Origin: a virus
DNA length: 31,893 bases
Virus record (IMG/VR): IMGVR_UViG_3300034198_016377
Coordinates: 1-31,893 of that record
Reading direction: 5' to 3' (one strand)
Shown piece after piece: positions 1 to 29,458 of the stretch; within the stretch, counting starts at the first letter, position 1; the number at the start of each line of letters is the position of its first letter. The notes under the pieces are model-generated. The model had not been told where the DNA came from, searched no databases, and saw nothing but the letters and a program-made list of their open reading frames with translations. Made by a program: the position numbers and the translations under genes.

Positions 1-3000
1 AATCAAATGATTGCAACAGACCCTACAGTTATTAAAATATCTTCTGTAAAAGCTGTGTTAGAGAACACACATCTTGGAAACTTAGAAAGAGCTTTAGATA
101 AATCTAATAATGCGTTAGGCACACTGTTGTTATTTAATAGTGAGGCATTCAGAGAGTATATAAACGAATTGCTAGAACTTTATAATAAGAATAAATACTT
201 ATCTAAGAAAAATCGTGAGTTAATTAGCGAAAAGTTATCTGCATCATTATTAGATTATATAATTCAATCTAAGAAAAATATGTTAGTGGGTGAGTTAACT
301 AAAGGAGAAAAATCTGCAGCAAGTTTACTTATCAAAGCTAAATCTAAATATCTGAAACTAGCGCAATTGGAAGAAGCTTCTTCATCATATCAACAAGTAT
401 TTGAACCTCAGATACTTCAAGATTTAGAGATTATTCCTGGTGCAAGAAAAGGAGCTCCTGAAACAATTAGACTTTCTACTAAACTAGAGAGTGCTGCTGA
501 AGTGAATATGTATACAGATATGATGAGAGGATTACGTGATGATCCTAACACATCAGAGTTATATGATGCATTACTTAGAATAGCAATTGTTCAAGGAACC
601 TACCGTACATCAGTATCTATTAAGAATATTATTCCTATTGAGGATTATGCTCGTGTTGTTACAGATTTGGTAAAAGGAATTACTTTAGATGAGTCGTTTA
701 ATGCATTTAAAGATAATTTACTATTCCAAAGGAACAATTTCAAAGATTCAACAATTGTTCCTAGAATTGATTTATACGCTAAAATTGATGAATACTCACT
801 TAGATTTAATTCAAGCACAGGAGAAGAATCTTATGACTATACCTTACCATCTATTATTAATAGTCAACTTGGTAGATCAGTTATTAAGATTAGTAAACGA
901 ACTAAAGGAGCTGGAGCTGAATTAATTGTAGTACCAAGAATAATTGAATCAAATGGAGATAGCATCGATTTTCAAACTGGACAAGTTATTACTCCTAGAC
1001 AATTTGCAGAAGCAGCTAAACAGGATGATAATCCTTTCACATATGTATATGGATATCAGTTAGTTAAAATCAACGGTAAACCTTTGATGGGTGTTAATAG
1101 TAAAGGTAAACCAACTAATGAATACATATATAAACTTGTAAACTTATACGGTGATGGTAAATTTACATTTGAATACCCTACAAATGGTAGTAAATCATTG
1201 TTAGAAAATGGTACAGCTAAAATAAGTACTGAGTTTACAAATGAAGAAGTATATGCGATGTTATCAGGTAAGTTAGAAGAATTACCTAATGTACAGTCTC
1301 AATCAACTCAACCTTTACCATCAGATCCTAAAGGTCTTGATCCATTTACTCCTACATCAAATGTTGAACCAAAAGGAGAAAAAGTTAAAGAAGGTATATA
1401 TGTAAATCAAGAAGCTCTTACAAAAGATAAACAGTTAGAATTGTTTGAATATTTAAAACCATTTTTAGAAGCTCAAGGTAAAAGGACAAACGTTTCACCG
1501 AATGCTCCTATAATGATAGGATTGGGATTAAGATGGGACTATAAGAAAAACAACTCTGAAAAAACTTCCGTGAATGTAGGTAAGAATTTAGCTGGATATA
1601 ATACAGCTTATGCTTATTATGATTTATCTATAGATGGAAAACCTTTAGGGAAAATAACTCCAAGATTTGTAGAGTTGATGAATAAAACTACAGGAGTAGA
1701 TATTAGTAATTATGACGGTGCTATTGTAAATATTTATACAAACAACTCTTTTATAAGTAATCATTCAGATTTAGAAGAATCTGAAACAGCAGAAAAATAT
1801 CCTGTAGTTGTAGCTAATATAGGAGGATCAGGAAACATTATATTAGGTACTGATGCAAATAAAATTAGTAAAGATTTAAAATCAGGAGCAGGTTATCTAT
1901 TTGGGTATGAAGGTAAAAATAGAAAAATTCCACATAGTACATATGCTAGTGATGTAAAAGGATTTTTACCAAGTATTACTGTTTCTCAAGAAGGTAAAAC
2001 TTTTAGCGAAGGTAGTTATAGAGTAAGTATAACTATGAGAAGAGTAATGCCTTTAGAACCAGGTATGCCTACGTCACCATTAATTAAATCATCTACACAA
2101 GTTCAATCTAATGAAGTTAAAAAAGGTGTAGAGATAAGTTCTAATGCTAAAGGATTAGCAGCAGCTCTTACAAATCCTACAGAACTTGCTAAATCAAAAG
2201 GTAATCTTACAGAGTCTTATCCTGTTAATTTTAATGGTAAAACTTATAGAGATGCAGAAGCAGCTTATCAAGCATTAAAATCTACTGCTACAAAAGATGA
2301 AGGTCCTAATAGTACTTATAATTTAATGGTAAAGATTATTAAAGCTAAACTTGAACAACATCCAAGATTAGTTAGTGAGATTACAAAACAAGGAGGTTCT
2401 GCTTGGATATTATCTTCTACTCATCAACCAACTAAACAAAATAGCGTATGGGAAACAGGTGGTAAAAATTGGTTTATTAAGTCTCTTAATGATGCCTATT
2501 TATCTATTCAACAATCTAACGAAGATAATGAAACTGAACAACTTGATAACATAGTTGCATACGGTGGTAAGAATTTTATTGTTGAAGGTAGTTTTGAATC
2601 TGGTAATGCAACTGTATTTTTTACTAAAGGAGATGGAACAAAAGGTGCAGAATTAACTTCTGATAAACCTTTATTTCGTAAAGTATCAGTTGCTACGTAT
2701 GCACAAGACAATCCAGATAATGTAGTAGAGTTAACAGATTTAAAAGGATCTCCTAAATACTTATTTATTGATTCAACAAAGAAAGTTGTATCATTAAATC
2801 CTACAAGTTACGGTGATGAGATTGTTTCTGAAGATGTTATCAATAGAGTTAACACATTAATGAATTATTTTAAAGGTGGTATTAATATAAATCCAGGAGG
2901 ATCATCTAAAGATACAACAAGATCTCCTAAGTTTTCTTATAAAGGTAAGACTATCAATACAGCATTTGATTTGACTAAAGGTCAAGTTACGGCTCTTGAA

Positions 3001-4659
3001 ACTTTATCTGATTTTGTTAAAAACAAAAACGGAGATAAGTTTATTACATTACAGGGACCTGCTGGTACTGGTAAAACATCTGTTATTGGATATTTACAAA
3101 ATTATCTAGGTAGTGCATATACTTTTCATTACATGGCTCCTACACATGCTGCAACAGCAGAGTTAGCATTTGCCACAGTGAAGACTGGTAATAAAACTCT
3201 TCCTGCAACAGTTGCTTCTTCTTTTAGTAAGAAGACAAATGGTTTAACTAAAAAACTAATAAGAAAACTTGCTCTTAGAAATAATGTAATTGTAATAGAT
3301 GAAGTGTCAATGCTTAATTCTGAGCTTTTTAATCTTGTAAAGAATTCAATAGATGGTGATGTAATTAAAGTTATTTTTATGGGAGATGAATTACAAATCC
3401 CTGAAGTTACTGACGAAACTGTGACTGAAAAGCAAGTTAATAAAGCTTTCTCTGAATTTGAGCAAGTTAAATTAACAGAAGTTAAACGTACTAGCGATGA
3501 TAATATATTGAAAGTTCTTAACACTATTAGGTATAACATTAATAATAAGATACCTAAGATTCCTAATACTAATGTATTAAAATATTTAAAAAATACTCAA
3601 TTTAATCTTAAACTCGCTGAGTCTATAGAAACTAACCCAGAAGATACTATGGTAATTGCTTTTACAAATAAGACTGTAAAAGAGCATAATGAAAGAATAA
3701 GAAAAGAGTTAGGTAGAGTTGGAAATTTACAAAAAGATGATGTTATCATTGGGTATTTGGGATATAGCAGTAAGCAAATTGAAAACAGTGATATTGCTAA
3801 TAGTCTTCAGTACACTGTAAAAAGTGTTAAGAAAAATGGGTCTATGTATAATATTACTGCTACTTCTAAAAAGTTAGATAATCTTAGAAAACTAGGAGTT
3901 GAAAATATTAGCGAAGAATTCACAACAGGATATTATCAACTTAGCCCTAACGATACATTTGTTTTTGATGATATTACAATTGTTGATATGGAAGCTAATA
4001 ATGCAAAAGTTAGTACATTAATGAAATCTGTGTATGATGCTAAAGTAAGAGCTCAGAAAAATTTTAAAGATTGGTATAAGTTTTATGACATAGTATCAGA
4101 TGTATCTAGAGAAATGTCAAGAATTGATTTGGGTGATAACTATATATACAATCCTATAACTAATAGAATGGAAAAATATGAAAAAGATAAACATAAAGCA
4201 CTCAAAAAAGAGTATGCTGAAATATATGTTGAGAAAGGTATTGGTTTAGGTCATGCTGTTACTGTACATAAATCTCAAGGTGCTACATTCAAACATGTAT
4301 TCTTTGATGCTAATAGTTTACCTGAAGGAGCTGTGTCTATTTTATATAATGGTGATAGAGTAGTTGGTATGGAGAAACATTCATTAATATATGTTGGTAT
4401 GTCTAGAGCTTCAGATACTTTAACAGTTAGTGATGATAATTCAGAAAACTTTTATAACTTAGATGGATCTCCGTTAGAACAAGAACCGTTTGATTTAGCT
4501 AATACAAGTGATACAAATTCTATAGAAAGTACTGAAAATTATATGAACTTAGAAGGAGAGATTTATGAATACTCAGAGATTAATCCTGATATGTTAGAAC
4601 ATCTAGGATATTCTCCAGAAGCAATAGGTAAAATAATGAAAAAAGTTAACGGTTGTTAA
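1..4659 (+). CDS. Giant fusion protein: AlkB-like dioxygenase, NADAR domain and SF1 helicase (5' end outside window)
   Basis: Residues are numbered from the Met at base 7, but the frame is open to the left edge, so the true start may lie upstream. Residues 1-470 are unassigned, partly helical. Residues ~470-685 fit an AlkB-type 2-oxoglutarate/Fe(II) dioxygenase: H586-x-D588, H643, and the R672...R678 signature 'RVSITMR' (AlkB consensus RxNxTxR). Residues ~705-840 fit NADAR (YbiA/DUF1768): 'NGKTYRDAEAAYQALKS' around E751, W800 and a downstream 'GKNWF'. Residues ~985-1480 are an SF1B RecD/Dda-like helicase: Walker A GPAGTGKTS (1017-1025), 'APTHAA', Walker B D1098-E1099, GDELQIP (1126-1132), HKSQG (1421-1425) and YVGMSRA (1462-1468). 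Established: AlkB proteins dealkylate nucleic acids, NADAR proteins act on ADP-ribose conjugates, and SF1B enzymes unwind DNA. Inference: an injected polyvalent protein that protects or repairs phage DNA. The next giant gene follows after 12 bases. The CDS is certain; the domain calls are strong for the helicase and good for AlkB and NADAR. Confidence 0.85.
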   Translation, partial: NQMIATDPTVIKISSVKAVLENTHLGNLERALDKSNNALGTLLLFNSEAFREYINELLELYNKNKYLSKKNRELISEKLSASLLDYIIQSKKNMLVGELTKGEKSAASLLIKAKSKYLKLAQLEEASSSYQQVFEPQILQDLEIIPGARKGAPETIRLSTKLESAAEVNMYTDMMRGLRDDPNTSELYDALLRIAIVQGTYRTSVSIKNIIPIEDYARVVTDLVKGITLDESFNAFKDNLLFQRNNFKDSTIVPRIDLYAKIDEYSLRFNSSTGEESYDYTLPSIINSQLGRSVIKISKRTKGAGAELIVVPRIIESNGDSIDFQTGQVITPRQFAEAAKQDDNPFTYVYGYQLVKINGKPLMGVNSKGKPTNEYIYKLVNLYGDGKFTFEYPTNGSKSLLENGTAKISTEFTNEEVYAMLSGKLEELPNVQSQSTQPLPSDPKGLDPFTPTSNVEPKGEKVKEGIYVNQEALTKDKQLELFEYLKPFLEAQGKRTNVSPNAPIMIGLGLRWDYKKNNSEKTSVNVGKNLAGYNTAYAYYDLSIDGKPLGKITPRFVELMNKTTGVDISNYDGAIVNIYTNNSFISNHSDLEESETAEKYPVVVANIGGSGNIILGTDANKISKDLKSGAGYLFGYEGKNRKIPHSTYASDVKGFLPSITVSQEGKTFSEGSYRVSITMRRVMPLEPGMPTSPLIKSSTQVQSNEVKKGVEISSNAKGLAAALTNPTELAKSKGNLTESYPVNFNGKTYRDAEAAYQALKSTATKDEGPNSTYNLMVKIIKAKLEQHPRLVSEITKQGGSAWILSSTHQPTKQNSVWETGGKNWFIKSLNDAYLSIQQSNEDNETEQLDNIVAYGGKNFIVEGSFESGNATVFFTKGDGTKGAELTSDKPLFRKVSVATYAQDNPDNVVELTDLKGSPKYLFIDSTKKVVSLNPTSYGDEIVSEDVINRVNTLMNYFKGGININPGGSSKDTTRSPKFSYKGKTINTAFDLTKGQVTALETLSDFVKNKNGDKFITLQGPAGTGKTSVIGYLQNYLGSAYTFHYMAPTHAATAELAFATVKTGNKTLPATVASSFSKKTNGLTKKLIRKLALRNNVIVIDEVSMLNSELFNLVKNSIDGDVIKVIFMGDELQIPEVTDETVTEKQVNKAFSEFEQVKLTEVKRTSDDNILKVLNTIRYNINNKIPKIPNTNVLKYLKNTQFNLKLAESIETNPEDTMVIAFTNKTVKEHNERIRKELGRVGNLQKDDVIIGYLGYSSKQIENSDIANSLQYTVKSVKKNGSMYNITATSKKLDNLRKLGVENISEEFTTGYYQLSPNDTFVFDDITIVDMEANNAKVSTLMKSVYDAKVRAQKNFKDWYKFYDIVSDVSREMSRIDLGDNYIYNPITNRMEKYEKDKHKALKKEYAEIYVEKGIGLGHAVTVHKSQGATFKHVFFDANSLPEGAVSILYNGDRVVGMEKHSLIYVGMSRASDTLTVSDDNSENFYNLDGSPLEQEPFDLANTSDTNSIESTENYMNLEGEIYEYSEINPDMLEHLGYSPEAIGKIMKKVNGC

Positions 4660-4671
4660 AATTTATATAAT

Positions 4672-7600
4672 ATGGCGACTTGCCCAAATAAAAATTTAGA
4701 TTCTTGGAAAAAGTTAGTAGCTGAAAAAGGTGAAGACATGGCTTATTATCTTTGGTATACTAACGATGGAGACATTTCTAAGTTAGTTTCTCCAGGAGAA
4801 ATAAAAGTATTGAACGGTAATGAAGATTTATATAAAAAATATAATCTTCTAAATAAAGAGGGTCGAATTAAAACCTTTTTGTACAATACAGTTGATCAGG
4901 TTAAAAAGATCAACGCTTTTGTAAACTCACTAAATAAGAGTCCTTACTATTCATTCAGTGTAAAGAAAACTCCATCAGGTCATAAAATATTTATTCATGA
5001 TAAAGGAATGACTAATCAGCAGGTTTCTAGAGGAGACGTAGATTTAGCGCTAAAGAATAAATATTTTCCTGATTCAGATGTAGTTGAGAGTTACGATATT
5101 TTAGAAAAAATTGCTAATAGTAATCATCCTTTAAATAAACTAGCAAACCATTTATTAAAATACGTAAGTACTAACAATGTCAATATTGAATTAGTTAATA
5201 AGTTAATTAATAATAGGTTAGGTGAAGTAGCAGGTGAATATTATTACGAATCTAATAATATTAAAATAAATAAAAATGCTAGATTTGACAAATTAGGTTC
5301 TGAAACTACATTACTTCATGAAATAATACACTCATTGTCAGCTCGAGAACTTGCTTCTAATTCAGAAGTTACAAAAGAGTTTAGAAAACTATATGAGTAT
5401 GCTCTTAAATTTATACCAGCATATAATGCTGATACTAAAGAAGGAGAATATGCAATGTATAATTTAGATGAATTTATGACTGGAATATTTACAGATGATA
5501 GATTTATTAAGAAACTTATGGAAATTTCTCCTATGAAAAGTGGAAATAAGTTTAGTGATTTTTATAATCAGATTTTAGACTATATTTATTCTTTATTTGA
5601 AATTAAAAGAGATGACAATTTATACACTCAGGCTTTTTCTGTAGCTAATGCTGTATTACAACAATCATCTGACTTTAGAAAAGAAAGTGAATATGTAGAG
5701 CGATATGCTAAAGAAAGTAGAGAAGTTCCAATTGATCAAATTATAAAACTCAGTAAAGATTTATTCAATAGATTGGATGTAGATCTTAAATCTATGAATA
5801 TAGTTAAAGGTGGGGTTAAACAAACTATTGATGATTTATCAATTATTGGAGCGGAACTTGTCAAGTTGACTAGTAAGAAAACTTCTGAGCTCACTCAACA
5901 AGCAATGGAGTTTGCTGTTAATATGATTCAAGAAAAGAATCCTAAGCTATTTAATGAATTACTTAAAAACATTAATAATTATAATGAGCTTAAGAATTTA
6001 TTTATAGAATACAATAACTCTCCTGAATATAAAACAGCTGATGGTAAACCAGATATAATAAAGATTAAAAAGAAAGCAATAGCTAATGTACTAACAAAAA
6101 CTTTAATCAATGATGAAGAAGGTACACCAGAACTTACAGAGAATTTAGATAAATCAATAAAAATGCTTAGTGATGTTATTGAATATAGTACAGAGTTTTT
6201 CAAGACATCAGGATTTGATAAAGCATCTATGTCTATAATTAAAGGAGAATTTGACGGTGACATAAATCAATTAAGAACTCAAATGGCATCTCTCCAAGCA
6301 GATGATTGGATTAAAAATGCTGTAGACTCTGCAGTTGATAAAGCAATAGATGTAAATAGTAGAATGAAGTTAGTTCCTGCAACAGGTAACCTTAAACGAC
6401 ATTATACGTTTGATGGAATCATTCAATCATTTTCTGTAACAGAGTTTATTAAAAGAGGTAAAGAGTTTTTTAGAACAGACGAACAGAAATTAGATGATGA
6501 TTATAAAAAAGCTTGGGGATCAGAAGGTCATGATTTTTTAGATAAGATTTCAAAGAAACGTTTTTTAGATGAGAACGGATACATCAAAGATGTGTACACT
6601 AATGATGATGTTCCAACACAACTTAACATTGGTATACAAGATGCCCTCATGCAATATCTCACTGAGCTATTTGATTCTTACAAAGCTAATGATGCATTAC
6701 GTACAGATGGTGCTCGTACTAGAATACTTACTGAAAAGATGGTGGTCAATACAAAGAAAAAAGGTGGAGTTGCTTCTACAATTGACTTTCAGGCTTTTAT
6801 TCCAGACGATAAAGTAGGTGTTAAAATAGACACCCTTGACTGGAAGTTTGTAAATATTGATACTTCTAGAGATGAAGATATTCCTTGGTACAAGAGAGAT
6901 GATTGGAATAAACAAATGAATCAATATGTAATGATGTATAAAACCGATTTATACGGACTTAAACCTGAAAATATTGGTAAAGCTAGAATGATTCCTTTCA
7001 TGGCTAAATACGTTCGTTCAGAAAGAGGGAATGCTAGTAGTCCATTATATTTAAACAGTGTTGAGATTGGTAAAGTAGATAGCTCTAAAGAAACTAATAT
7101 ATATTTACTTCCTGTACCTATTACATCTGAAACTACTAATAATCAAAAAATTGACGGATTATTAAAAGCACTAAGAGTTCAGTATGAAAAAATGTATAGT
7201 GCACAATTAGCTGGTGGAGAAGAACAATTTGAAAAAAACTTAAGACTTAATCAGTTCTCTATGGCAATTAGATCATTACACGTTAAACTTGATTTTGAAC
7301 CACTTGCTTCTGCAGGACAAATATACATTGCTGATTTATCTAAGATACTAAAAAACTTTAAAGGTATTGACTATAGTACAATGAGTGTTGAAGATATTAA
7401 TGCTAAGATGGGACAGCTCATAAACTTTGAATCGGCAGCTGATAAGTTTACTAAATTAGACGACATATTCCTATCAAAGTTTGACACATATGAGCTTAGT
7501 GAAGAAGATGAAGCTGAATTATCTAATATTCGTAAATTAGCATTTGATACTAAAGATGTATTAAAACAAATCAAACAATTATATGATGACTACACTGTAT

Positions 7601-10326
7601 ATTTAGCTGAGAAAAGTGGTGTAGTTAATGAAGATGATGGTTTATCAATATTAGATGCTGAAAGAGAAGTAGAGACATTAGGTAAATCATTTCTTGAGGC
7701 AAGTAAACTTTCTCCATTAGTTATTAGACTTGCTTCTAATTTAATTATGAAAGCAAGAAACTTGATGAGAATTAAAGTTAATCGAGTAATTGATGATTAT
7801 ACCACTATATTAAATAAAGTAGAAAAAGAAGCAAATGCAAAAGGTAAAACAGCATTTGAGATGGTTGCTACTATTAAAGATGGTAATATGCGTTTGATGA
7901 GTGAATTGTCTGCAGATTTCTGGAAAGCTTTTGACGCAGCTAAAGAGAATGAAGATAAAAACTTCTTTTTGAAAAATATGGATAGAGCTAAGTATGATAA
8001 ACTTGTAGCAGAATACGTAACTAAAAGTATAGAAAATATTAGACAAAGAACGTTTATTCCAAATGATTCTGAAAAAAATCAAAAAGTTAAGGAGGCTAGA
8101 ATTCTAAAAATAAAAAAATCTTTAGAAATTGATAATATAGACTTTGACGGATTTAATGAGTATAAATTTAGAGAATTTTTTATAGCATCAATGAATAAGA
8201 ATGATTGGTATTCTGATGATTTTAAACAATTGATGAATAGTCCTAATGCTCTAGCATTGTGGAATTTCTTTCGTGAGCTTAATTTAAAAGCTAAGAGGAT
8301 GGGATATTTAAGTGAAAAAGAAGCTTTATCTTTTTTTCCTGTAGTACAAGAATCTTTCCTTAAGAAATTACAGCAGTCTGGTAATTTTAAAAAAGAAAGT
8401 ATGGATTTCTTTAAGAACTTCTATGAAGTTAGAGAAGAAGAAGAACAAAGATTTTCTAAACTTGATCCTGAAACAAATAAGATTAGAAGAGTAGTACCTA
8501 AATATTTCATGAGTAAAGATCAAGAGATAACTAAGTTATCTAAAGACATGAATAAAGTTGGTATACTTTGGATAAATGCGTTAATGCAATATGAAACATC
8601 AAAAGGTCTTGAGAATACTTTATTGGTATTACATAAAGTGCAAGATTCAAAAGGTTCAATTATTGTAGATGAGAATAATAATATTGTGTATGATGATAGA
8701 GGTGTACCTAAAGTAGATGTAAACAATAAGTCTACTGCAGATATTCTAATGACTATGATAGATGATCATATTTATGGATTGCAAGAAAATGAGAACTCCT
8801 GGGGAAATATTAAATTAACTCAAGCATTAGATAAAGTTACACCTAATAGTGATAAAAAAGAAGTAATTAAGATTAACGTTAAGAAAGGGATGAGCACTAT
8901 TAATAGTTACATTCAATCATTGGCTGTTGGTTTAAAAGCTTCAATTGCTATTCCTAACTGGTTTGGATATAACTTTCAAGCATATATTAATGGTGGAAGA
9001 TTTTATACATTTAAAGATTTTACTAAAAATAATATTAAATCTACTACAGGAATAGGTTTTACTATAGAAGAAAAAGGAATAATAGATATACTTGTTCCAT
9101 TAAATGAAGACTTATCTAAAGAAAAAATTAGACATAATGCTAAAGAACAATCGTATACTAAATGGTTAGAGAGCTGGAACTTTACAGATGTGATGATGGT
9201 GAGTAACTCTTGGCCTGAAAGAAAGTTACAGATTGCTAATGCTATGTCTTTTGTAGATAACTCTACAATTATAGATGGTAAGATTGTAAATATTCGTCAA
9301 TATTTAATGAATTTAGATAGTATAACAAAGTATAAATTAAGTGAGCAAGATAGAATAACTCTTGAAAAAAGTCTTGATTCAAGAGTTGAGCAAATGATAA
9401 AAGATAAATCATTAGCTAAACTTGTTAGGTTTGAGAATGATAGATTGGTAATACCTGGCGTATCTGATGAATCATTAGCTGATTTTCGTACAACTATAGT
9501 TGAGTATGGTAGAAATCTAAACGGTCAAATGAGTGAAGATAATAAAGCTGACTATCGAAGAGATGCTATTTTTAAATCATTCATGATGTTTAGAAACTGG
9601 ATGCCTAAACAAATATCTATACGTGCTCTTGATATCAATAAGAATGCAGAACTTGGTATTTGGGAATATGGTAGAAGTCGATTGTTCATGAAAACTATTT
9701 TACACTTAGGTGCAAAAAATGTTCTTAAAATGAGAAGTATTTTAAATGGTACTGATGAAGGTCTTACGATAATGCGTGAATTACTTGAAAACAAGAAAGA
9801 AGAATATCTAAAGAAACATGGTAAAGAACTTAAAATAACAGAGGAAGAATTTTTTGATCTTGTAAGAACCGAGCTCTCCAATCAAATGAAAGAGCTTAGA
9901 TTATTATTATCATTGATGGCAATTGTTGCTGCTGCAGGATTTGCTGTAGATGATGACGATGATGAAGAAGATTTATTAGCCAAGAATCAACTTAAATTCT
10001 TAGCTAAACTAATTAATAAAACTTCTGACGAGGTTAGTTTTTACTATAATCCTCTATCTTTTCAAAGTATGACTAATGGTAGCTTACTTCCTGCATTAGG
10101 AGTTACTAATAAAATATGGTCAGTTATAAAATATGGTACTGTAGACATATATGGATTTACTACTGATGATGAACAATTGATGAAAAAAACGCATAGTCTA
10201 AAAGCTTTATTTGACATGATTCCAATATTATCTCAATTTCAAAGAGAGTTATTGCCTATAATTGATCCAGAGCTTGCAAAAGAAATGGGAATTAAACCAA
10301 CTGCCGAATCTCGTCAGGGAAGATAA
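4672..10326 (+). CDS. Giant polyvalent-type virion protein: zincin metallopeptidase plus RecB-like PD-(D/E)XK nuclease
   Basis: 1884 aa. Residues ~170-300 fit a zincin: H216-E217-x-x-H220 in 'LLHEIIHSLS', with E267 in 'NLDEFM' as the likely third zinc ligand. Residues ~575-765 fit a RecB/Cas4-type PD-(D/E)XK nuclease: H620 in 'GSEGHDF', E688, D705 in 'STIDF', D723-W-K725 as the D-x-K core, and Q748-x3-Y752 as the QxxxY helix. The remaining middle is mostly long helical sequence without a recognised fold. Near the end a hydrophobic helix (~1744-1759) runs into an acidic stretch (1760-1767), then a 'YYNPLSF' region resembling large-polyvalent-protein tail domains such as LPD38. Met at 4672 begins 'MATCPNKNLDSWKKL', a plausible N-terminus. 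The gene lies directly after the AlkB/NADAR/helicase gene and before the lysis cassette, so it is probably late-expressed and packaged. The peptidase could process the polyprotein or attack host proteins, and the nuclease could degrade host or competing DNA; both roles are inference. Confidence 0.85.
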   Translation: MATCPNKNLDSWKKLVAEKGEDMAYYLWYTNDGDISKLVSPGEIKVLNGNEDLYKKYNLLNKEGRIKTFLYNTVDQVKKINAFVNSLNKSPYYSFSVKKTPSGHKIFIHDKGMTNQQVSRGDVDLALKNKYFPDSDVVESYDILEKIANSNHPLNKLANHLLKYVSTNNVNIELVNKLINNRLGEVAGEYYYESNNIKINKNARFDKLGSETTLLHEIIHSLSARELASNSEVTKEFRKLYEYALKFIPAYNADTKEGEYAMYNLDEFMTGIFTDDRFIKKLMEISPMKSGNKFSDFYNQILDYIYSLFEIKRDDNLYTQAFSVANAVLQQSSDFRKESEYVERYAKESREVPIDQIIKLSKDLFNRLDVDLKSMNIVKGGVKQTIDDLSIIGAELVKLTSKKTSELTQQAMEFAVNMIQEKNPKLFNELLKNINNYNELKNLFIEYNNSPEYKTADGKPDIIKIKKKAIANVLTKTLINDEEGTPELTENLDKSIKMLSDVIEYSTEFFKTSGFDKASMSIIKGEFDGDINQLRTQMASLQADDWIKNAVDSAVDKAIDVNSRMKLVPATGNLKRHYTFDGIIQSFSVTEFIKRGKEFFRTDEQKLDDDYKKAWGSEGHDFLDKISKKRFLDENGYIKDVYTNDDVPTQLNIGIQDALMQYLTELFDSYKANDALRTDGARTRILTEKMVVNTKKKGGVASTIDFQAFIPDDKVGVKIDTLDWKFVNIDTSRDEDIPWYKRDDWNKQMNQYVMMYKTDLYGLKPENIGKARMIPFMAKYVRSERGNASSPLYLNSVEIGKVDSSKETNIYLLPVPITSETTNNQKIDGLLKALRVQYEKMYSAQLAGGEEQFEKNLRLNQFSMAIRSLHVKLDFEPLASAGQIYIADLSKILKNFKGIDYSTMSVEDINAKMGQLINFESAADKFTKLDDIFLSKFDTYELSEEDEAELSNIRKLAFDTKDVLKQIKQLYDDYTVYLAEKSGVVNEDDGLSILDAEREVETLGKSFLEASKLSPLVIRLASNLIMKARNLMRIKVNRVIDDYTTILNKVEKEANAKGKTAFEMVATIKDGNMRLMSELSADFWKAFDAAKENEDKNFFLKNMDRAKYDKLVAEYVTKSIENIRQRTFIPNDSEKNQKVKEARILKIKKSLEIDNIDFDGFNEYKFREFFIASMNKNDWYSDDFKQLMNSPNALALWNFFRELNLKAKRMGYLSEKEALSFFPVVQESFLKKLQQSGNFKKESMDFFKNFYEVREEEEQRFSKLDPETNKIRRVVPKYFMSKDQEITKLSKDMNKVGILWINALMQYETSKGLENTLLVLHKVQDSKGSIIVDENNNIVYDDRGVPKVDVNNKSTADILMTMIDDHIYGLQENENSWGNIKLTQALDKVTPNSDKKEVIKINVKKGMSTINSYIQSLAVGLKASIAIPNWFGYNFQAYINGGRFYTFKDFTKNNIKSTTGIGFTIEEKGIIDILVPLNEDLSKEKIRHNAKEQSYTKWLESWNFTDVMMVSNSWPERKLQIANAMSFVDNSTIIDGKIVNIRQYLMNLDSITKYKLSEQDRITLEKSLDSRVEQMIKDKSLAKLVRFENDRLVIPGVSDESLADFRTTIVEYGRNLNGQMSEDNKADYRRDAIFKSFMMFRNWMPKQISIRALDINKNAELGIWEYGRSRLFMKTILHLGAKNVLKMRSILNGTDEGLTIMRELLENKKEEYLKKHGKELKITEEEFFDLVRTELSNQMKELRLLLSLMAIVAAAGFAVDDDDDEEDLLAKNQLKFLAKLINKTSDEVSFYYNPLSFQSMTNGSLLPALGVTNKIWSVIKYGTVDIYGFTTDDEQLMKKTHSLKALFDMIPILSQFQRELLPIIDPELAKEMGIKPTAESRQGR

Positions 10327-10418: not shown

Positions 10419-10453
10419 GATTATCAAATATTAAATACCATTTTAATAACTAT

Positions 10454-10500
10454 ATAGCACTCTAACTCATTATATGAGATAGTAGTGCTATTTAATTTTT
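10454..10500 (+). terminator. Rho-independent-type terminator before the lysis cassette
   Basis: The outer arms ATAGCACT (10454-10461) and AGTGCTAT (10484-10491) are perfectly complementary. Inner arms CTCAT (10466-10470) and ATGAG (10474-10478) extend the helix with small bulges. A T-rich tail (TTTAATTTTT) follows directly. It ends only 6 bases before the next start codon, so it could instead act as a leader hairpin affecting translation of that gene. Confidence 0.6.
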
Positions 10501-10506
10501 ATAAAC

Positions 10507-10794
10507 ATGATCTCATTTTCTGAATTTAAAGACAAAGCATTAATAGGTTTATTTACATTTATAGTTGGAATGATGTGGAATGATATCCGAGAAATGAAAT
10601 CGGATATAAAAACTTTAATTATTAATAATAGTGAAAGTAAGTCACGAATAGATGCATTAGAAAGACAACTTTTTAAAAATTCAAGTTACAAAAAACCAAT
10701 ACCTTTTGAGAATCCTCCTAAAAAAGTAATACAAAATCAGGTAGCGATATTAAATAAAGACGAAGATGACTACACCCATCATACAAATGTTTAA
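10507..10794 (+). CDS. Small membrane-anchored coiled-coil protein, lysis accessory candidate
   Basis: 95 aa. A hydrophobic segment at residues ~12-27 is followed by a charged heptad-like helix (~28-60) and a polar, Pro/Lys-containing tail. An N-terminal anchor plus coiled coil is typical of small lysis-cassette membrane proteins (haemolysin XhlA-like or Rz-like). The sequence itself is not one I recognise. It sits first in a tight cluster with a holin-like gene, which starts 29 bases before this one stops, a spanin-like gene and an M15 peptidase. That context supports a lysis role, but only by association. Confidence 0.7.
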   Translation: MISFSEFKDKALIGLFTFIVGMMWNDIREMKSDIKTLIINNSESKSRIDALERQLFKNSSYKKPIPFENPPKKVIQNQVAILNKDEDDYTHHTNV

Positions 10795-11029
10795 ATATAT
10801 TGAAAATCTATGGTTAGGAGACGATGGAAAACCTTCTATTCGTAGAGCTCTAGCTATTGCATTAGTTATTGATTTTATTAATAACACTAATTATGCAATA
10901 CATAATTGGGAATTAGGTAAAACATATGCAGATATAGCAATGCTTTTGGGAATAGAAGCTGGATTAATTGCAGCAATGTTAACTCTTACTACATATTCAA
11001 CATCAGTTAAACTACCAACTAAAGAATGA
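10766..11029 (+). CDS. Putative holin, two transmembrane segments
   Basis: 87 aa. Two hydrophobic stretches are visible, roughly residues 26-44 ('RALAIALVIDF' region) and 55-78 ('YADIAMLLGIEAGLIAAML'), with a short polar linker and a charged C-terminus. Size, topology and position just upstream of an endolysin match phage holins, which permeabilise the inner membrane to release or activate the endolysin. No family-specific motif is seen. The gene overlaps both neighbours: 29 bases with the previous one, and an ATGA stop/start overlap with the next, suggesting coupled translation. Confidence 0.6.
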   Translation: MTTPIIQMFKYIENLWLGDDGKPSIRRALAIALVIDFINNTNYAIHNWELGKTYADIAMLLGIEAGLIAAMLTLTTYSTSVKLPTKE

Positions 11030-11646
11030 AAAATGTAATAACTACAGCTATAATAGCTATCTTATTAACAATCATTGTTATACAAAAAGCATGCACACCT
11101 AATGTAGATGTGACTAAAAAAAATAAAACAGTAACTAAAATAGTAAATGTAAAAATACATGATACAATCTACACAACTCCTAAATTATTAAAAACTATAG
11201 TTATTGAAAAAGACACATCTTTACAATACTTACCTGATACTAATTATATATTACTAAAAAATCAATATCAAAAACTTGTTAAAGAACATTTATCTAAAAA
11301 TGTTTATATAGATAAACTTAACTTAGATACATTAGGTAATATTATTATAAGAGACACTACACAATTTAACAAATTAGGAAAAAGAAGTTATCAATTTAAT
11401 TTAAATATACCTAGAAGAGTAGATTCTATATTTGTAACAAATACTATATATACTCCTTTAAAACGTCAGGTTTATTTAGGAGTAGGAATTACATTAAATC
11501 AATCAATTAGTAATCTAGGAATAAGGGCATCTTTTTTATATAAAGATAAAAAAGACAATATATTTAGTCCTAGTATAATAGTTAATACAAGTGGTAATGT
11601 TATTTATGGAATTGATACTTATTTTAAAATTAAATTAAAGAAATAA
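11026..11646 (+). CDS. Membrane-anchored periplasmic protein, spanin-like candidate
   Basis: 206 aa. The N-terminus has a strongly hydrophobic helix (residues ~5-20) followed by a Cys at 23 in 'IQKACTP'. This could be a relaxed lipobox or simply a signal anchor. A Lys/Thr-rich stretch with 'VKIHDTIYTTPK' and a helical segment follow, and the last ~65 residues are strand-rich ('YLGVGITLNQS', 'GNVIYGIDTYF'). The layout resembles membrane-tethered proteins found beside endolysins in Bacteroidetes phages (DUF6808-like), possibly i-spanin equivalents that bridge the inner and outer membranes. That role is inferred from position and architecture. The start overlaps the holin-like gene (ATGA), and the stop overlaps the next tiny gene (TAATG). 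Confidence 0.6.
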   Translation: MKNVITTAIIAILLTIIVIQKACTPNVDVTKKNKTVTKIVNVKIHDTIYTTPKLLKTIVIEKDTSLQYLPDTNYILLKNQYQKLVKEHLSKNVYIDKLNLDTLGNIIIRDTTQFNKLGKRSYQFNLNIPRRVDSIFVTNTIYTPLKRQVYLGVGITLNQSISNLGIRASFLYKDKKDNIFSPSIIVNTSGNVIYGIDTYFKIKLKK

Positions 11647-12778: not shown

Positions 12779-14389
12779 ATGATACCACCAAAACAAATAG
12801 GTTGGGGAGTAGAAGAAAACCTTTTATGGCAAATCTCTAAACAATTAGAGAACTTGACAAATGTTACATATAATTCTAGGAATAGCCCATTAAATTTTTT
12901 GAACTATTCAGCACAATCATCAAATCCACCCACACCAACAAGTGGATTTAATTTATTTGCTAATTCATCAGGTTTATTCAGCTGGAAAGGTACAAATGGA
13001 TTTGTTAGAACATTTGATGGTACGGCTAATACAGCGGATAGAATGTACACTTTGCCAAATAATAATGGTACGATTGCATTGTTGGAAAGTACACAGACTT
13101 TTAGTGGTGTTAATACTTTTACTAATAGTTTGACAGTAGTTAAAAATCTCTTTGCTTCTGGAAACGGAAGTGTCAATGTTCAAGTTGGTCAAAATACTGA
13201 TACTGGAAATGGTAATTTTGCAGGAATTTGGATAAACCAATTAAGTACAAATAGAACTGTAACTAATTATGCTTTTTTATCGGATGCAATTAATGGAAAT
13301 ATATTTAATTCCACTGTCGGATTTTTAGATTTTAGGATTGCAAATTCTTCAAAAATAAGAATACATAACAACGGAAATTTTTCAATAGGAACTACAACTG
13401 ATGCTGGTTATAAACTTGATGTCAATGGTACTGGTAGAATTTCATCTAATTTACTTGTGGGTTCATCTATTACACCAAATAACTTTTCATTGAATATAAA
13501 TAGTGGTGGTAATGGTAGTTATATTCACATTACAGACAGTATTACAGGCGTAACTTCAGCTGATGGTTTTATAATAGGTGTAACTGCAACACAAGAAGCA
13601 ACACTTTTAAATAGAGAGGCAACTGCAATGACTTTTAGGACTACAGATCTTGAAAGAATGCGAATAACAGCTGGTGGTAATGTTTTAATTAATACTACCA
13701 CGGATGCAGGATATAAATTAGATGTTGCTGGTACTGGAAGATTCAGTTCACAATTAACTGTATTGGGAAGTAGTTCTTCTCAACCAGCATTATTAGCAAA
13801 CGGGTTTGGTATAACAAGTAATCTTGGTAGAACACCAGCTCCAGGAAATGGTATAGCTTTAAGCATAGATGGTGGATTTCAAAATACAGATGGAGGAACT
13901 GCGGCAAGTACAACTGTATCAATAGCAAACGTTGCAAGAATACAGCAAACTATTTTAAATGCTATTAATACAAATGTAACATATACAGTTGGTACAACAT
14001 TAAGAATAGAAGGAGCACCAAATGCAGGAACAAATGTTACTATTACTAATCCTTATGCATTATATGTTAATAGTGGTCAAAGTTTCTTTGGTGGCAATGT
14101 TACTTTAGGTGTTGCAGGTAACAAATTAAATATTGCAACAGGTACAAATGCAAGTATTGGTACAGCAACATTAGTAGCAGGAACTGTAACAGTAAGTACA
14201 ACAGCAGTTACTACTAATTCAAAAATAATGTTAAGTTATAATACTCCAATCGGTACATTAGGAGTTGTTATAGCTGCACCAAGTGCAAGTATTGTGAATG
14301 GTGTTAGTTTTGTAATTAATAGTTTAACAAGTGCTAATACTGTATTAACAACAGATTTATCAACTATAAATTGGTGGATAATTAACTAA
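12779..14389 (+). CDS. Tail fibre protein with repeated 'DAGYKLDVNGTGR' modules
   Basis: 536 aa. The N-terminal ~32 residues include 'LLWQISKQLENLT', which recurs in the 49-residue gene directly downstream and is probably an attachment helix. The body is low-charge, Thr/Asn/Gly-rich beta sequence. Two copies of TTTDAGYKLDV-x-GTGR begin near residues 205 and 306, about 100 residues apart, and each precedes a strand-rich block. This module is common in Bacteroidetes phage fibres. The C-terminus ends in a compact 'TINWWIIN'. It is probably a trimeric, receptor-contacting fibre. No enzyme motif or chaperone (peptidase S74) domain is seen. Confidence 0.8.
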   Translation: MIPPKQIGWGVEENLLWQISKQLENLTNVTYNSRNSPLNFLNYSAQSSNPPTPTSGFNLFANSSGLFSWKGTNGFVRTFDGTANTADRMYTLPNNNGTIALLESTQTFSGVNTFTNSLTVVKNLFASGNGSVNVQVGQNTDTGNGNFAGIWINQLSTNRTVTNYAFLSDAINGNIFNSTVGFLDFRIANSSKIRIHNNGNFSIGTTTDAGYKLDVNGTGRISSNLLVGSSITPNNFSLNINSGGNGSYIHITDSITGVTSADGFIIGVTATQEATLLNREATAMTFRTTDLERMRITAGGNVLINTTTDAGYKLDVAGTGRFSSQLTVLGSSSSQPALLANGFGITSNLGRTPAPGNGIALSIDGGFQNTDGGTAASTTVSIANVARIQQTILNAINTNVTYTVGTTLRIEGAPNAGTNVTITNPYALYVNSGQSFFGGNVTLGVAGNKLNIATGTNASIGTATLVAGTVTVSTTAVTTNSKIMLSYNTPIGTLGVVIAAPSASIVNGVSFVINSLTSANTVLTTDLSTINWWIIN

Positions 14390-16461: not shown

Positions 16462-16743
16462 ATGCAAGTAGAGAAGAAGTTTTTTCCTAGTATAATGAGA
16501 TATAACGATGAGTTATACTTTGCACATATTGAAGGAATCGTTGAATCGGTTGATGAACTATGTAGCATGGAAATAACTAATCGTAATAGCTCATATTTAT
16601 TTAGAATAGCTCCTTCTCTACCAAAATATACTAATCTATTAATAGAAGAAATATTAAAATTCAATAATAGACTAGGCATTAAATTAAACTTGTCAAAGAG
16701 TATTAAAACAAGTTCAGTTATTTATTTTGATATTAACATATAA
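16462..16743 (+). CDS. Hypothetical protein
   Basis: 93 aa, not recognised. It starts directly after the stop codon of the ferritin-like gene and ends 7 bases before the tailspike gene. The protein is mixed alpha/beta with a conserved-looking 'YFAHIEGIVESVDEL' and no membrane segment or Cys. Its position between virion genes suggests a small structural or assembly role, but nothing in the sequence proves it. Confidence 0.6.
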   Translation: MQVEKKFFPSIMRYNDELYFAHIEGIVESVDELCSMEITNRNSSYLFRIAPSLPKYTNLLIEEILKFNNRLGIKLNLSKSIKTSSVIYFDINI

Positions 16744-16750
16744 AATCAAT

Positions 16751-18892
16751 ATGGCAAAATTTATAAAAACAGGATACTGGTCAGAAAAGAAGACAGGGTA
16801 CGAAGGAGAGTTAAATTTAACTAAAGAAATACTAGAAACTGCACTACCTCAACAAATAGATATAAATTCAAAACTGCAAACAGTTAATTCAATTTCTGCT
16901 TTACAATTGTTTACGGATGCATCAATTGCTTATTTTGATGGCTCAACATGGGAAAGAAAAAGTGGTAATGTGTCGAGTAACGGTGGTTCTTATGCAGGAA
17001 CATTAATTCGAGTTTCAAGTTTGGTTTATTGGGAGAGAAAATTTAACAATCAAGTAAATGCAAGATGGTTTGGTTTAATAGGTGATGGAACAATAGAAAC
17101 TCAAAAACTACAATTAGCTGTTTCAAATTCAATTGGATATGAACTTTTTATAGAATCTGGTACATATATTACTAATAATATAACAGTTTATTCAAATACT
17201 ACTATTATTGGTAAAAATGCTATTTTAAAAATGGTAGGAAACTCTCCATTAGATAATTCAGTATTGTCAATAATTAATGCAACTAATGTTAAAGTTGAAG
17301 GATTAGAAATTGATTTATCGTTAGTTGTTTTAGGAGATATTTATGCAGGTACATCGGCTATTGAAATTAGATATTCAAACAATATAACTATTAAAGATTG
17401 TTTTATTCATGATAGTAAATATGTAGCAATTAGATTTACAGTATCAAATAATAATTGTACTGTAACAGAATGTCAAATTACAAATACTGATACTGGTATA
17501 ATTTCAACAGGAGGTATTGTTGGTTTAATTGCTACTAATAATAGAATAAATGGAGGAACTTCTGAAGGAATTACTATATACGGATTAACATCAAATACTC
17601 CTGCTGAACATTTTTTAATACAAGGTAATATAATTTCTGACAAAGAGGCGTATGGTATAAGTATTCCTTATGGTAAAAATGGAATTATATCAAATAATAA
17701 TATTTATAATTGTTTAGGTGGAGTTACTTTAAATGATACTAATTTACCTTTAATAACTTCAGATATTTTAATTGATAGTAATCATATTGAGGGAACTTCT
17801 TTTGGAATACGTTCAACTGCACTAAGAATTACAGTTACTAATAATTTTTTAAAAAATTTTATTAATGATGCTATTAACGTTGAAGGTTATATTGGAAATG
17901 ATTCAATACTAATAGCAGATACTACAAATATATCTAATAATCATATAATATCTCCTGCTCAAGTTGGAGGTAATAGAGCAGGTATTCATATTAAAGACGT
18001 AGTTAATTGTTACATAACAAATAATAAAATATTAACTAAAAAAATAAGTGGAGGTAGTGCTATTTATTTTCAAGGTATAATGAATAATGTTTATATTGAA
18101 AATAATATTTCAATAGATGGTAGCATAGTAACTCCAAAAACAATTTTTGATGAAAATATTTTTATTATGAATAATAAATTTTCATTTTTTTATATAAATG
18201 TTGTGCAGCCTATAAATTATATTATAAAATTAATTGTTGCAGATAATATATTTACTAATTCATCTCAATTAAACAAATTAATATCTTCAGCTTCAGGTAT
18301 AGCAATTTCTGAAACAATTAGTCCGCAAATTGTTGCTAGAAATAACAATGATGTTTTAATAGGAATAAATTATAAACCAACTTTTCTTGAACAAGGATTT
18401 ACAGGAATTTCTAAATTTCCTGTTATGTTTAGAGGAGCAGAAGGAGATAACAATAGTTATCCTATAACAGTTAAAGGAGATGGTTTATCAACAATTAATA
18501 AATATACTGGTATAAAATTAATGAATGGTAACTCTAACGAGTATTCAAAATGGGTTGGTATGATAGCTGTAGCAGAATCAGCAGCTGCTAATCAAAATGG
18601 TTTTAGTATAGTTACAAATGATACGCAAAGATTAAGAGTATTTCATGATGGACAAGTTTGTATTCAAAGTGGAGGAACATTTACAAATTCAGGTGAATTA
18701 CTTCAAGTAAATGGTACTGGAAGATTCACTGGAAATATTTTAGCACCACAGCACAATATTCCAGCTTTAAACACTCCACCAGCAAGTGCAACCGCAACAG
18801 GAACAACAGGTGAAATTAGATGGGCAAATGGATTTGTTTATTTATGCGTTGCGACAAATACTTGGCAAAGAAGTGCTTTAACGACATGGTAA
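16751..18892 (+). CDS. Tailspike / receptor-binding protein with beta-helix body
   Basis: 713 aa from the ATG at 16751. The upstream in-frame TTG at 16727 would lie in the previous gene and spoil the shared N-terminus. Residues 4-22 carry the 'FIKTGYW...GEL' anchor. Residues 41-113 ('KLQTVNSIS', 'YFDGSTWERKSGN', 'WFGLIGDG') match the paralogue at 19222. Residues ~110-500 are repetitive Asn/Ile/Thr-rich sequence ('NNITIKDCFIHDS', 'NNRINGG') typical of a right-handed beta-helix as in phage polysaccharide depolymerases. The C-terminal part has 'QVNGTGRFTGN' and the common fibre tip 'ATGTTGEIRWANG'. Its stop codon overlaps the next start (ATGGTAA). The depolymerase activity is unproven. Confidence 0.8.
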   Translation: MAKFIKTGYWSEKKTGYEGELNLTKEILETALPQQIDINSKLQTVNSISALQLFTDASIAYFDGSTWERKSGNVSSNGGSYAGTLIRVSSLVYWERKFNNQVNARWFGLIGDGTIETQKLQLAVSNSIGYELFIESGTYITNNITVYSNTTIIGKNAILKMVGNSPLDNSVLSIINATNVKVEGLEIDLSLVVLGDIYAGTSAIEIRYSNNITIKDCFIHDSKYVAIRFTVSNNNCTVTECQITNTDTGIISTGGIVGLIATNNRINGGTSEGITIYGLTSNTPAEHFLIQGNIISDKEAYGISIPYGKNGIISNNNIYNCLGGVTLNDTNLPLITSDILIDSNHIEGTSFGIRSTALRITVTNNFLKNFINDAINVEGYIGNDSILIADTTNISNNHIISPAQVGGNRAGIHIKDVVNCYITNNKILTKKISGGSAIYFQGIMNNVYIENNISIDGSIVTPKTIFDENIFIMNNKFSFFYINVVQPINYIIKLIVADNIFTNSSQLNKLISSASGIAISETISPQIVARNNNDVLIGINYKPTFLEQGFTGISKFPVMFRGAEGDNNSYPITVKGDGLSTINKYTGIKLMNGNSNEYSKWVGMIAVAESAAANQNGFSIVTNDTQRLRVFHDGQVCIQSGGTFTNSGELLQVNGTGRFTGNILAPQHNIPALNTPPASATATGTTGEIRWANGFVYLCVATNTWQRSALTTW

Positions 18893-19206
18893 GTATTCTA
18901 TTAATATTCCTCGCAAGCATAAGTAATGCAATAATGGACACGCTGAAAGACCATTTTAGCGTGTCTATATTCCAAAAACTCAATCAAGAATTTTGGAATC
19001 CCTCAGTAAGTTATCGCAAAAAAACGATACTTACTTACAGGGTTGACGCATGGCATATTTTTAAGAGCATCACGATTATTTTGATATGTTTTGCCATTGT
19101 TTTTTATCAGAGTATTACAATATATCCTTTGGTAGATGTGGCAATATTAGGAATGGTTTGGAATATAACTTTTGAGATTGTATATAGATTATTAAAAAGA
19201 AAATAA
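18886..19206 (+). CDS. Small membrane protein paired with the tailspike
   Basis: 106 aa from ATG 18886, which overlaps the tailspike stop codon. Hydrophobic segments lie near residues 2-14, 58-74 and 78-97, and the C-terminus is basic ('RLLKRK'). The motif 'AIMDTLKDHFSVSIF' and 'FWNPSVS...DAWHIFKS' recall a small integral membrane protein seen in Flavobacteriia and their phages, with no known function to my knowledge. A truncated copy (21047-21142) follows the second tailspike, so the pairing with tailspikes is a repeated arrangement. Superinfection exclusion is one speculative role. Confidence 0.7.
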   Translation: MVSILLIFLASISNAIMDTLKDHFSVSIFQKLNQEFWNPSVSYRKKTILTYRVDAWHIFKSITIILICFAIVFYQSITIYPLVDVAILGMVWNITFEIVYRLLKRK

Positions 19207-19221
19207 TAAATTTAAATTAAT

Positions 19222-21036
19222 ATGTCAATATTTTTAAAGGCTGGCTATTGGTCAAGTAAGAAAAAAGGTAATCTAGGAGAGTTAGATTTAGATATAGAAA
19301 TATATAAATATGCAACTGATGTTATTACAACTTCTTTAAATTTAAAATTACAAACTGTAAGTTCTATTTCTGAATTGAAAACGTACACATCTTCAAACTT
19401 TGCCTACTTTGACGGCTCCACATGGGAAAAGAAAAGTGGAAATTTAGCGAGCAATGGAGGAAGTTACGCAGGAACAATTATTAATGTTTCGAGTAGTTTT
19501 TATTGGGAAAGGATATCTGATTATTATACTCCTGAGATGTTTGGTGCAGTTGGTGATGGATTAACTAATGATGCAAATAAGATTCAATCTGCTATTAATG
19601 CAACTGCTATTGGAGGAACGCTAATGTTTGCAAATAAAACTTATTTTATATCAAGCAGATTAACAATTAATAAAAGTATTAAAATAACAGGTGGATTGAA
19701 TTCAATTGTTACTACAAATGGTCAAAACATAATTGAATTACTTAGTTGCTCTAATGTGAAAATAGAAAATATTAAGTTTTATTCAACATTAAATTCTACA
19801 AATGCTGATTTATTTGGTCTTGTTTATGCGTTCAATAAACAACTAACAAATATTACTATAATAAACTGTTATTTTTCTGTTCCTAATGTTCCCCAAAATG
19901 GCATTAAAATAATAACAGATTTAACAGGAAGTTATATTGAAAAATTGAATGTTGAAAAATGCACATTTGAATCAATAGGAAGAATGGGTGTTGAGATTCA
20001 AAATCATTTATTTGATGGTGTTTATAGAAGTAATAATATAACTATAAAAGATTGTATTTTTAAAGATTTAGGAATGAAAATAGGTGTAAGTCCAAATGGA
20101 GTTGAGCATTATGGAATGGCTATCAGTTTTTCAGGATTAGGTAGAAATAATAATTCAATAAATAACATAATTGATAACCCTTATGATATTGGTATAGAAT
20201 ACGCAAGTGGTGCAGGTAGCTATTCAACAATAGCTAATAATAATTTTATAAATATTACAAGAGTAAATACAGAAAAATCTAATGCAAATGTATTTGTATT
20301 AAGTGTAACAACAACTGGTAATCTTTCTTGTGATAATTTAGCGATTTATAAGAATTATTGCATTAGTACAACTTCAGTTGCAGCTTGTAGATTTCAAAAT
20401 CTTAAATATGCAAATATTTACAATAATGATTTTAATCTGAAGCAACCAATTTATTTTTTTAAAATGATGTATTCTACTATTTCTAATAATATTTTTATTT
20501 CAAGAGAAGCATATAGTGTTTATACAACTTCAGATAATCCTTTTTTTCCTGTTGCTTATAATATTTGGACTAATAATACATTCGATGTAACAACTGCAAC
20601 AGGTGTAATAGCTCCAGTTGTATTTGAAGAAGAAAGTAAAGAAAATATAATTGAAGGAGGTACACTAAGAAGGCTAGGAGATTCTAATATTATGATAAAT
20701 TTTGGTAGTGCAACAAATAATAAAATGGTTAATGTGAAAGTAAATAGTTTACCTAACAGTACAGTATTTAATGTTTCTATGACAGATGCAGACAAAACTC
20801 TTGAAGAATTTCAAGTACAATCAGGATTTATAGAAATTACTGGTACACTTACTGCCACAAGAATATTGTATGTACCGTTAACTAATAGACCGCTTTACAT
20901 AAAAAATTCAACTAATAATTCTCTTGAAATTAGATTAAGAGGGCAAACGGTAACAGGTGTTACTTTACCGAGTACAAATAGTAAAACTTACTTAGTAGAA
21001 ATTTCAAAAAATTCAACTTCTTGGATAAGTATTTAA
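19222..21036 (+). CDS. Tailspike with pectate-lyase-like beta-helix
   Basis: 604 aa. It carries the anchor 'FLKAGYWS...GEL' at residues 4-22 and an N-terminal domain nearly identical in pattern to the 16751 tailspike ('AYFDGSTWEKKSGN', 'SNGGSYAGT'). Then comes the classic Pectate_lyase_3 opening 'MFGAVGDGLTNDANKIQSAI' (~106-125) with 'GGTLMF...TYF'. Parallel beta-helix coils with Asn ladders follow to about residue 500, then a short C-terminal domain unlike that of its paralogue. Such proteins bind and often cleave capsule or exopolysaccharide. Two different bodies on one anchor suggest a two-receptor or swappable adhesion system. Confidence 0.82.
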   Translation: MSIFLKAGYWSSKKKGNLGELDLDIEIYKYATDVITTSLNLKLQTVSSISELKTYTSSNFAYFDGSTWEKKSGNLASNGGSYAGTIINVSSSFYWERISDYYTPEMFGAVGDGLTNDANKIQSAINATAIGGTLMFANKTYFISSRLTINKSIKITGGLNSIVTTNGQNIIELLSCSNVKIENIKFYSTLNSTNADLFGLVYAFNKQLTNITIINCYFSVPNVPQNGIKIITDLTGSYIEKLNVEKCTFESIGRMGVEIQNHLFDGVYRSNNITIKDCIFKDLGMKIGVSPNGVEHYGMAISFSGLGRNNNSINNIIDNPYDIGIEYASGAGSYSTIANNNFINITRVNTEKSNANVFVLSVTTTGNLSCDNLAIYKNYCISTTSVAACRFQNLKYANIYNNDFNLKQPIYFFKMMYSTISNNIFISREAYSVYTTSDNPFFPVAYNIWTNNTFDVTTATGVIAPVVFEEESKENIIEGGTLRRLGDSNIMINFGSATNNKMVNVKVNSLPNSTVFNVSMTDADKTLEEFQVQSGFIEITGTLTATRILYVPLTNRPLYIKNSTNNSLEIRLRGQTVTGVTLPSTNSKTYLVEISKNSTSWISI

Positions 21037-27171: not shown

Positions 27172-27175
27172 AACT

Positions 27176-29455: not shown

Positions 29456-29458
29456 GAA

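Follow-up and report, generated by a model that had tools for sequence, protein, structure and literature searches.

The window, that is, the whole 31,893-nucleotide stretch analysed here (IMG/VR record IMGVR_UViG_3300034198_016377), begins inside a giant gene. The corresponding frame comprises 1552 residues and is open from base 1 of the window to a stop at position 4659. Since no stop precedes the contig edge, this ORF is 5'-truncated, and the ATG at nt 7, which provides its first methionine, is not a demonstrated start. A second public contig from the same virus (G011), 99.997% identical to the window over 30,103 bases, also starts inside this gene, further in than the window does; the catalytic RNA polymerase (RNAP) core lies outside both contigs. 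Along the frame, three domains can be differentiated (Table 1): (i) an AlkB-type Fe/2OG dioxygenase; (ii) a NADAR-superfamily domain, hereafter NADAR-like; and (iii) a Dda-like SF1B helicase. This three-domain match is far beyond chance, and profiles, hhalign and motifs confirm the original prediction that the three lie in order in one open frame. Residues are numbered here according to the frame; the numbers of the original prediction are 2 lower (its H586/D588/H643 are H588/D590/H645).

Table 1. Features of ORF 1-4659 and of the gene that follows it in the window.
Feature	Position	Strand	Basis
Giant crAss-like vRNAP polyprotein, best reading as its C-terminal part	1..4659	+	No upstream stop; collinear DFDxDK ORFs and cr118_1 gp14
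vRNAP C-terminal region, aa 13-427	37..1281	+	30-34% identity to L013, L014, L015 and L042
AlkB-type Fe(II)/2OG dioxygenase, aa 466-690	1396..2070	+	PF13532; alignments with L024 and L091; hhalign; residues
NADAR-like domain, divergent branch, aa 708-838	2122..2514	+	E753, K760, H808, W817, E818
Linker region, aa 846-955	2536..2865	+	Common to L039 and L040
Dda/RecD2-like SF1B helicase, aa 976-1495	2926..4485	+	phrog_325, PF13604, PF13538, Dda 3upu
Next giant cargo-type protein, 1884 aa	4672..10326	+	HExxH metallopeptidase-like motif at aa 216

The 1884-residue protein encoded downstream has a weak SprT-like match and is related only to proteins of the crAss-like phages cr55_1, cr1_1 and cr10_1; by eye, its central stretch resembles a PD-(D/E)XK nuclease. 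Elsewhere in the window, two tail-spike-like proteins and a protein with a C-terminal polysaccharide deacetylase PHROG match are encoded at 16727-21036 and 12779-14389. A block in the opposite orientation (25080-31160, minus strand) contains a UvsX-like recombinase (30132-31160), a PhoH-like ATPase (27777-28436) and a glycosyltransferase (25754-26521).

The N-terminal region of the frame (aa 13-427) aligns with giant proteins of the four loci listed for it in Table 1, with E-values from 1e-53 to 1e-58. In L013-L015, the matching stretch begins approximately 440 residues after the motif AGSDFDVDK/AGSDFDIDK/QGSDFDVDK, and L042 also carries a DxDxD motif upstream of the homologous stretch. Around DFDxDK, the L013 protein aligns with g066 of Cellulophaga phage phi14:2, annotated as a catalytic RNAP subunit (DFDIDK). 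The same L013 protein matches 141 phage records, mostly crAss-like or with Bacteroidota hosts, and is collinear with the 4946-residue gp14 of cr118_1 (KNV30_gp14; Besingivirus, Crassvirales), which combines an RNAP core with a C-terminal helicase related to that of the window. In cr118_1, gp14 is followed by another giant gene (gp15), just as the gene at 4672-10326 follows ORF 1-4659. A phi14:2-type portal was found in 13 of the 22 searched records, including those of the closest virion RNAP (vRNAP) relatives (G013, G014, G015 and G023), and a major capsid protein in 8 of the 22; neither protein was found in the window (G000) or in G011, both of which are fragments. Because of the homology of aa 13-427, the collinearity with cr118_1 gp14 and the records with portal and major capsid protein, the most plausible reading of ORF 1-4659 is that it encodes the C-terminal portion of a vRNAP of crAss-like type.

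The phi14:2 proteins g065-g067 have been detected in virions by mass spectrometry, and the RNAP-associated cargo of crAss001 (155-277 kDa) is thought to be ejected partly unfolded ahead of the DNA (PMC10172136). By analogy with such relatives, the window protein would be packaged and injected. It had been predicted to be a single injected protein: injection remains very probable, since the ORF encodes the end of a cargo protein of the vRNAP type, whose virion location is taken from homologues, but the RNAP context had been missed. A stand-alone injected enzyme is rejected, since aa 13-427 belong to the vRNAP scaffold.

With regard to the helicase, the best profile match is phrog_325 (Dda-like; E 1.7e-64), and PF13604 and PF13538 are also matched; TIGR01448 (E 4.9e-15) stays below its equivalog cut-off, and the comparison with Dda (3upu) gives an E-value of 1.5e-12. 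The motifs GPAGTGKT, DEVS, MGDELQIP, TVHKSQGATF and VGMSRA appear in this order, so that the full RecD/Dda set previously reported holds, with Walker A/B and the SF1 motifs in place and phrog_325 in agreement. The linker that precedes the helicase is 38-39% identical to L039 and L040 (E 1e-14 to 3e-15), where it likewise lies between a NADAR-like domain and a helicase.

The AlkB-type domain is matched by PF13532 (2OG-FeII_Oxy_2) at aa 534-680, with an E-value of 6.5e-6 on the whole ORF; when excised, the piece passes the curated cut-off (31.3 versus 31.2 bits). Its signature is complete (H588-S-D590, H645 and R674-VSITM-R680), which means that all five HxD/H/RxxxxxR residues named at the outset are present. 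In hhalign, the domain matched cellular AlkBs at 94.6% (E 6.6e-8), while shuffled and reversed controls stayed below 0.4%. The threshold of the AlkB equivalog TIGR00568 was not reached (E 0.014), and AlphaFold2, run on a two-row alignment, gave no usable model of this part (pLDDT 30). The domain occurs in three giant ORFs, all of which keep the metal triad and both arginines: (i) the window ORF, with its vRNAP-tail homology; (ii) L024 (G006), a 4559-residue frame of a crAss-like record, where it lies above the PF13532 cut-off (33.7 bits); and (iii) L091 (IMGVR_UViG_3300034418_007243, ORF 3-9662), where it is located at the C-terminus of a crAss-like vRNAP frame in which DFDxDK is seen directly (SGADFDIDK). 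The last of these surfaced only on a scan with the L024 AlkB domain, earlier and wider AlkB scans having been empty; it has no NADAR-like module and no detectable Dda-like helicase. A search of 50,697 isolate phage records gave no relative of the AlkB domain of the window protein. For jumbo phages, a sporadic presence of AlkB has been described (PMC7824862).

The NADAR-like domain is more diverged. The Pfam NADAR family (PF08719) does not match the window, and the best E-value among 23 members of the branch is 0.037, which does not reach the curated cut-off. Nonetheless, 20 of these 23 members match phrog_1017 (best E 2.9e-5), which is a NADAR family because E. coli YbiA (query sequence checked as identical to PDB 2b3w) matches it at 1.2e-38. 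Profile comparison by hhalign against a set of YbiA and 13 genomic NADARs gave 96.6% (E 5e-10); shuffled and reversed profile controls score at most 1.2%, and a chance match is hence rejected. The AlphaFold2 model reached a pLDDT of 86 and a pTM of 0.83. Searched with Foldseek against BFVD, it retrieved viral NADARs on top with probability 1.00, yet with E-values of only 4e-3 and up; against the PDB, the ADP-ribose-bound NADAR 8bau came first but weakly (probability 0.44; next at most 0.13). A PDB sequence search with the module yielded only antibody noise. The domain is clearly a relative of the NADAR superfamily, too diverged for Pfam: the NADAR-type block originally pointed out belongs to the superfamily according to hhalign, phrog_1017 and fold, but to a separate branch, whose existence Pfam has overlooked.

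E753 and K760, located seven positions apart, do not vary among the 23 members and are the counterparts of E88 and K95, which matter in the E. coli C7 NADAR (PMC11543638). By contrast, the domain lacks a segment of approximately 20-25 residues through which the P. nicotianae NADAR makes most of its contacts with ADP-ribose and which carries K75, R79, Y84, D86, W89 and R93 in the ADP-ribose-bound structure. Neither Glu, Asp nor His is found at the third catalytic position (D171/E125), which is occupied by Ser, Lys, Asn or Thr across members; three residues past it, H808 is invariant. Phage gp30.3 NADARs have a His at the third catalytic position. H808 could then replace the third catalytic residue, and a His-based site is conceivable. 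On the other hand, the domain may not be a hydrolase, the conserved ADP-ribose contacts having been lost; because this grip is missing, another substrate or a binding function only would have to be considered.

The NADAR-like module is present in 27 viral loci (approximately 20 distinct crAss-like records after removal of near-identical ones), with one copy per record where tested. With a single exception, these copies are embedded in giant frames, which reach up to 5076 residues, and most of the module-bearing frames of sufficient length show the RNAP motif. In general terms, three arrangements can be distinguished: (i) C-terminal to the RNAP core, in most cases; (ii) N-terminal to it, in L035 and L042; and (iii) in a separate 1637-residue protein adjoining the vRNAP frame, in L025. 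Identity to the window copy is 57-91% in phages and 43% in a bacterial metagenome-assembled genome (MAG), whereas the scaffolds around the module share about 30% identity or cannot be aligned. As these scaffolds do not align, exchange of the module between distant phages is needed. The module is under purifying selection (dN/dS about 0.1-0.3, dS 0.4-0.8), and the same values argue against the high identity being due to nothing more than recent copying, which is therefore rejected as the sole cause. Ordinary NADARs were found with a YbiA query in 341 of the 50,697 phage records, from which the NADAR-like branch is absent.

Concerning its partners, the module appears together with a Dda-like helicase in the window, L021, L026, L039 and L040, and together with AlkB in L024. 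The combination had been regarded as unusual; the exact trio was seen only in this virus among the loci examined, and two-module combinations recur in other crAss-like vRNAPs. As a separate observation, SLOG-like motifs (NHSGGA, AGIGSR) are present in L024 (about 9086-9640 and 10439-11152), L026 (about 9029-9640) and L018 (about 8986); L026 also has a weak DNA_processg_A match, and DUF4326-like stretches can be discerned by eye in these giant frames. Such SLOG-like and DUF4326-like parts are candidate ADP-ribose- or nucleotide-handling domains on vRNAPs.

Beyond phages, the module is found on conjugative plasmids of cyanobacteria, in proteins of 2,100-2,600 residues. The plasmid ORFs concerned are L045 (1045-7605), L046 (490-7029), L047, L093 (4570-10812) and L094 (2797-10551); in Anabaena pANACY.02, the giant gene is located one small gene away from the relaxase gene. 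The giants of L045 and L046 were scanned and gave no significant Pfam match. Variovorax megaplasmids carry stand-alone NADAR-like genes of approximately 147 residues. The bacterial copy belongs to one Agitococcus MAG, and among 299 genomes of its phylum the module was present only in that MAG itself. A module common to phage and conjugative-plasmid proteins would fit an entry-associated role.

The domain identities, the vRNAP context, the recurrence of the module, the AlkB residues, the NADAR E/K pair and the purifying selection are established computationally; the substrates, a counter-defence role and a helicase serving the polymerase on incoming DNA are what we infer. It is considered fairly probable that the frame encodes the tail end of a vRNAP that brings a helicase for the incoming genome and, in AlkB and the NADAR-like domain, erasers for the first minutes. 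Following this reading, the vRNAP cargo protein would be packaged inside the capsid, pass through the phage tail in threaded form and regain its fold in the host cytoplasm as the DNA enters; exchangeable modules would be carried on its C-terminal tail. The Dda-like helicase would most likely aid the polymerase in opening or clearing the incoming genome, and AlkB and the NADAR-like domain would most likely remove chemical marks or ribosyl/ADP-ribosyl adducts in the first minutes. Such marks or adducts might be borne by nucleic acid or by small signals and might come from host defence or from damage. The eraser modules would arrive where early transcription takes place, in a fixed ratio to the polymerase.

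Under the original prediction, which gave DarT as its example, DarT-type ADP-ribose (by NADAR) and methyl or alkyl marks (by AlkB) would be stripped from phage DNA during unwinding, a single injected enzyme thereby countering defences that modify DNA. All three domains required by such a model are present, E753/K760 correspond to E88/K95 of the E. coli C7 enzyme, and polypeptides that join a NADAR-like domain to a helicase recur. But the ADP-ribose-contact segment is missing, the D171/E125 position is not acidic, and none of the loci read shows a link to DarT. Moreover, T4 gp30.3, an active phage NADAR, hydrolysed guanine-ADP-ribose in vitro and did not rescue cells from DarT1. Removal of DarT-type ADP-ribose from phage DNA is thus unsupported and the model very unlikely; owing to the missing segment, membership of the DarT antitoxins is not adopted either.

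Two other explanations concern the NADAR-like module. One of them holds that its targets are small defence signals derived from ADP-ribose (e.g., cADPR variants), which it would degrade or sequester, AlkB being an independent module. Iyer et al. (2022) argued that phage NADAR, Macro, SLOG and DUF4326 proteins target mainly small ADP-ribose derivatives, and the explanation parallels the SLOG/Macro/DUF4326 sets of other phages; SLOG/DprA-type motif matches and one weak profile match in L002, L018, L024, L026 and L039 point in the same direction. These SLOG-like and DUF4326-like parts, however, consist of short motifs and visual resemblance rather than significant profiles, and the module has no counterpart of the adenine/pyrophosphate grip seen in NADARs; the explanation is deemed unlikely. 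According to the other one, the module is no longer an enzyme and serves, under constraint, for binding or docking within the proteins with which phages and conjugative plasmids enter. The loss of the ADP-ribose segment, the high conservation along the whole module (including the N-terminal block ISSN.KGL..ALTNPTE) and a position that varies between proteins, as that of a docking tag could, speak for it; nevertheless, E753 and K760 are invariant over the 23 members and an invariant His lies nearby, as expected of an active site, which leaves pure docking unlikely.

CrAss-like phages rank with the most abundant human gut viruses and, to our knowledge, few roles beyond transcription have been assigned to their injected giant proteins. 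Concrete enzymatic modules can now be named on one such protein. If the erasers-on-vRNAP reading is true, a single molecule brings along the means to clean the template, unwind it and start its transcription. Separately, there are precedents for injected polyvalent proteins, crAss vRNAPs and phage NADARs (PMC5512222, PMC7886860, PMC9503650); no paper dealing with both Crassvirales and NADAR was found in the open-access literature searched, a body that leaves most subscription papers outside. It is tentatively proposed, as a possibility, that injected crAss-like RNAPs carry swappable erasers of base and ribosyl modifications, and that the compact NADAR-like branch, lacking the ADP-ribose grip and having an invariant His, could be a new enzyme family that phages and conjugative plasmids alike carry in their entry proteins, directed against a common host defence. 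The question is then raised of whether there is a host defence acting at the DNA entry of both phages and plasmids that is answered by a NADAR-like module of 130 aa.

With respect to known systems, the closest are the vRNAP cargo proteins of Crassvirales (phi14:2 g066; crAss001 gp47/gp49/gp50; cr118_1 gp14), which are likewise giant and multidomain and are followed by another giant gene; the homologues of the window protein share with them the DFDIDK RNAP core. As in the window protein, a Dda-like helicase forms the C-terminus of cr118_1 gp14, but the latter has no NADAR-like or AlkB-like match; phi14:2 g066, at 2180 aa, is much shorter and does not match the window protein. The AlkB-type domain shares with AlkB family dioxygenases the features HxD..H and RxxxxxR and the N.Y.....HSD context; compared with cellular AlkBs, it scores only marginally and sits inside a vRNAP polyprotein. 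With the NADAR superfamily (YbiA, DarT1-linked NADARs, T4 gp30.3), the NADAR-like branch has in common the core, the E..(7)..K pair, the VM..A..AKF.QH helix and the D/N..W motif. It differs from known NADARs in lacking the SP..A..GR....W..R segment and in having its own N-terminal block (ISSN.KGL..ALTNPTE) and THQPT/WETGG blocks, and its members, 43-91% identical to the window copy, are far closer to it than any known NADAR. Finally, the polyvalent proteins of phages and conjugative elements described by Iyer et al. (2017; PMC5512222) are likewise large multi-enzyme polypeptides predicted to enter with invading DNA. Their paper does not mention AlkB, SLOG or crAss-like phages, and the helicases noted from it are of the SF2 SNF2-type or UvrD, whereas that of the window is Dda-like. 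ORF 1-4659 corresponds to the polyvalent description, in which one very large phage or conjugative-element polypeptide combines several enzymatic domains related to conflict: its 1552 aa, only part of the full protein, contain four domains, and the NADAR-like module is common to the giants of phages and to those of conjugative cyanobacterial plasmids, as in polyvalent proteins.
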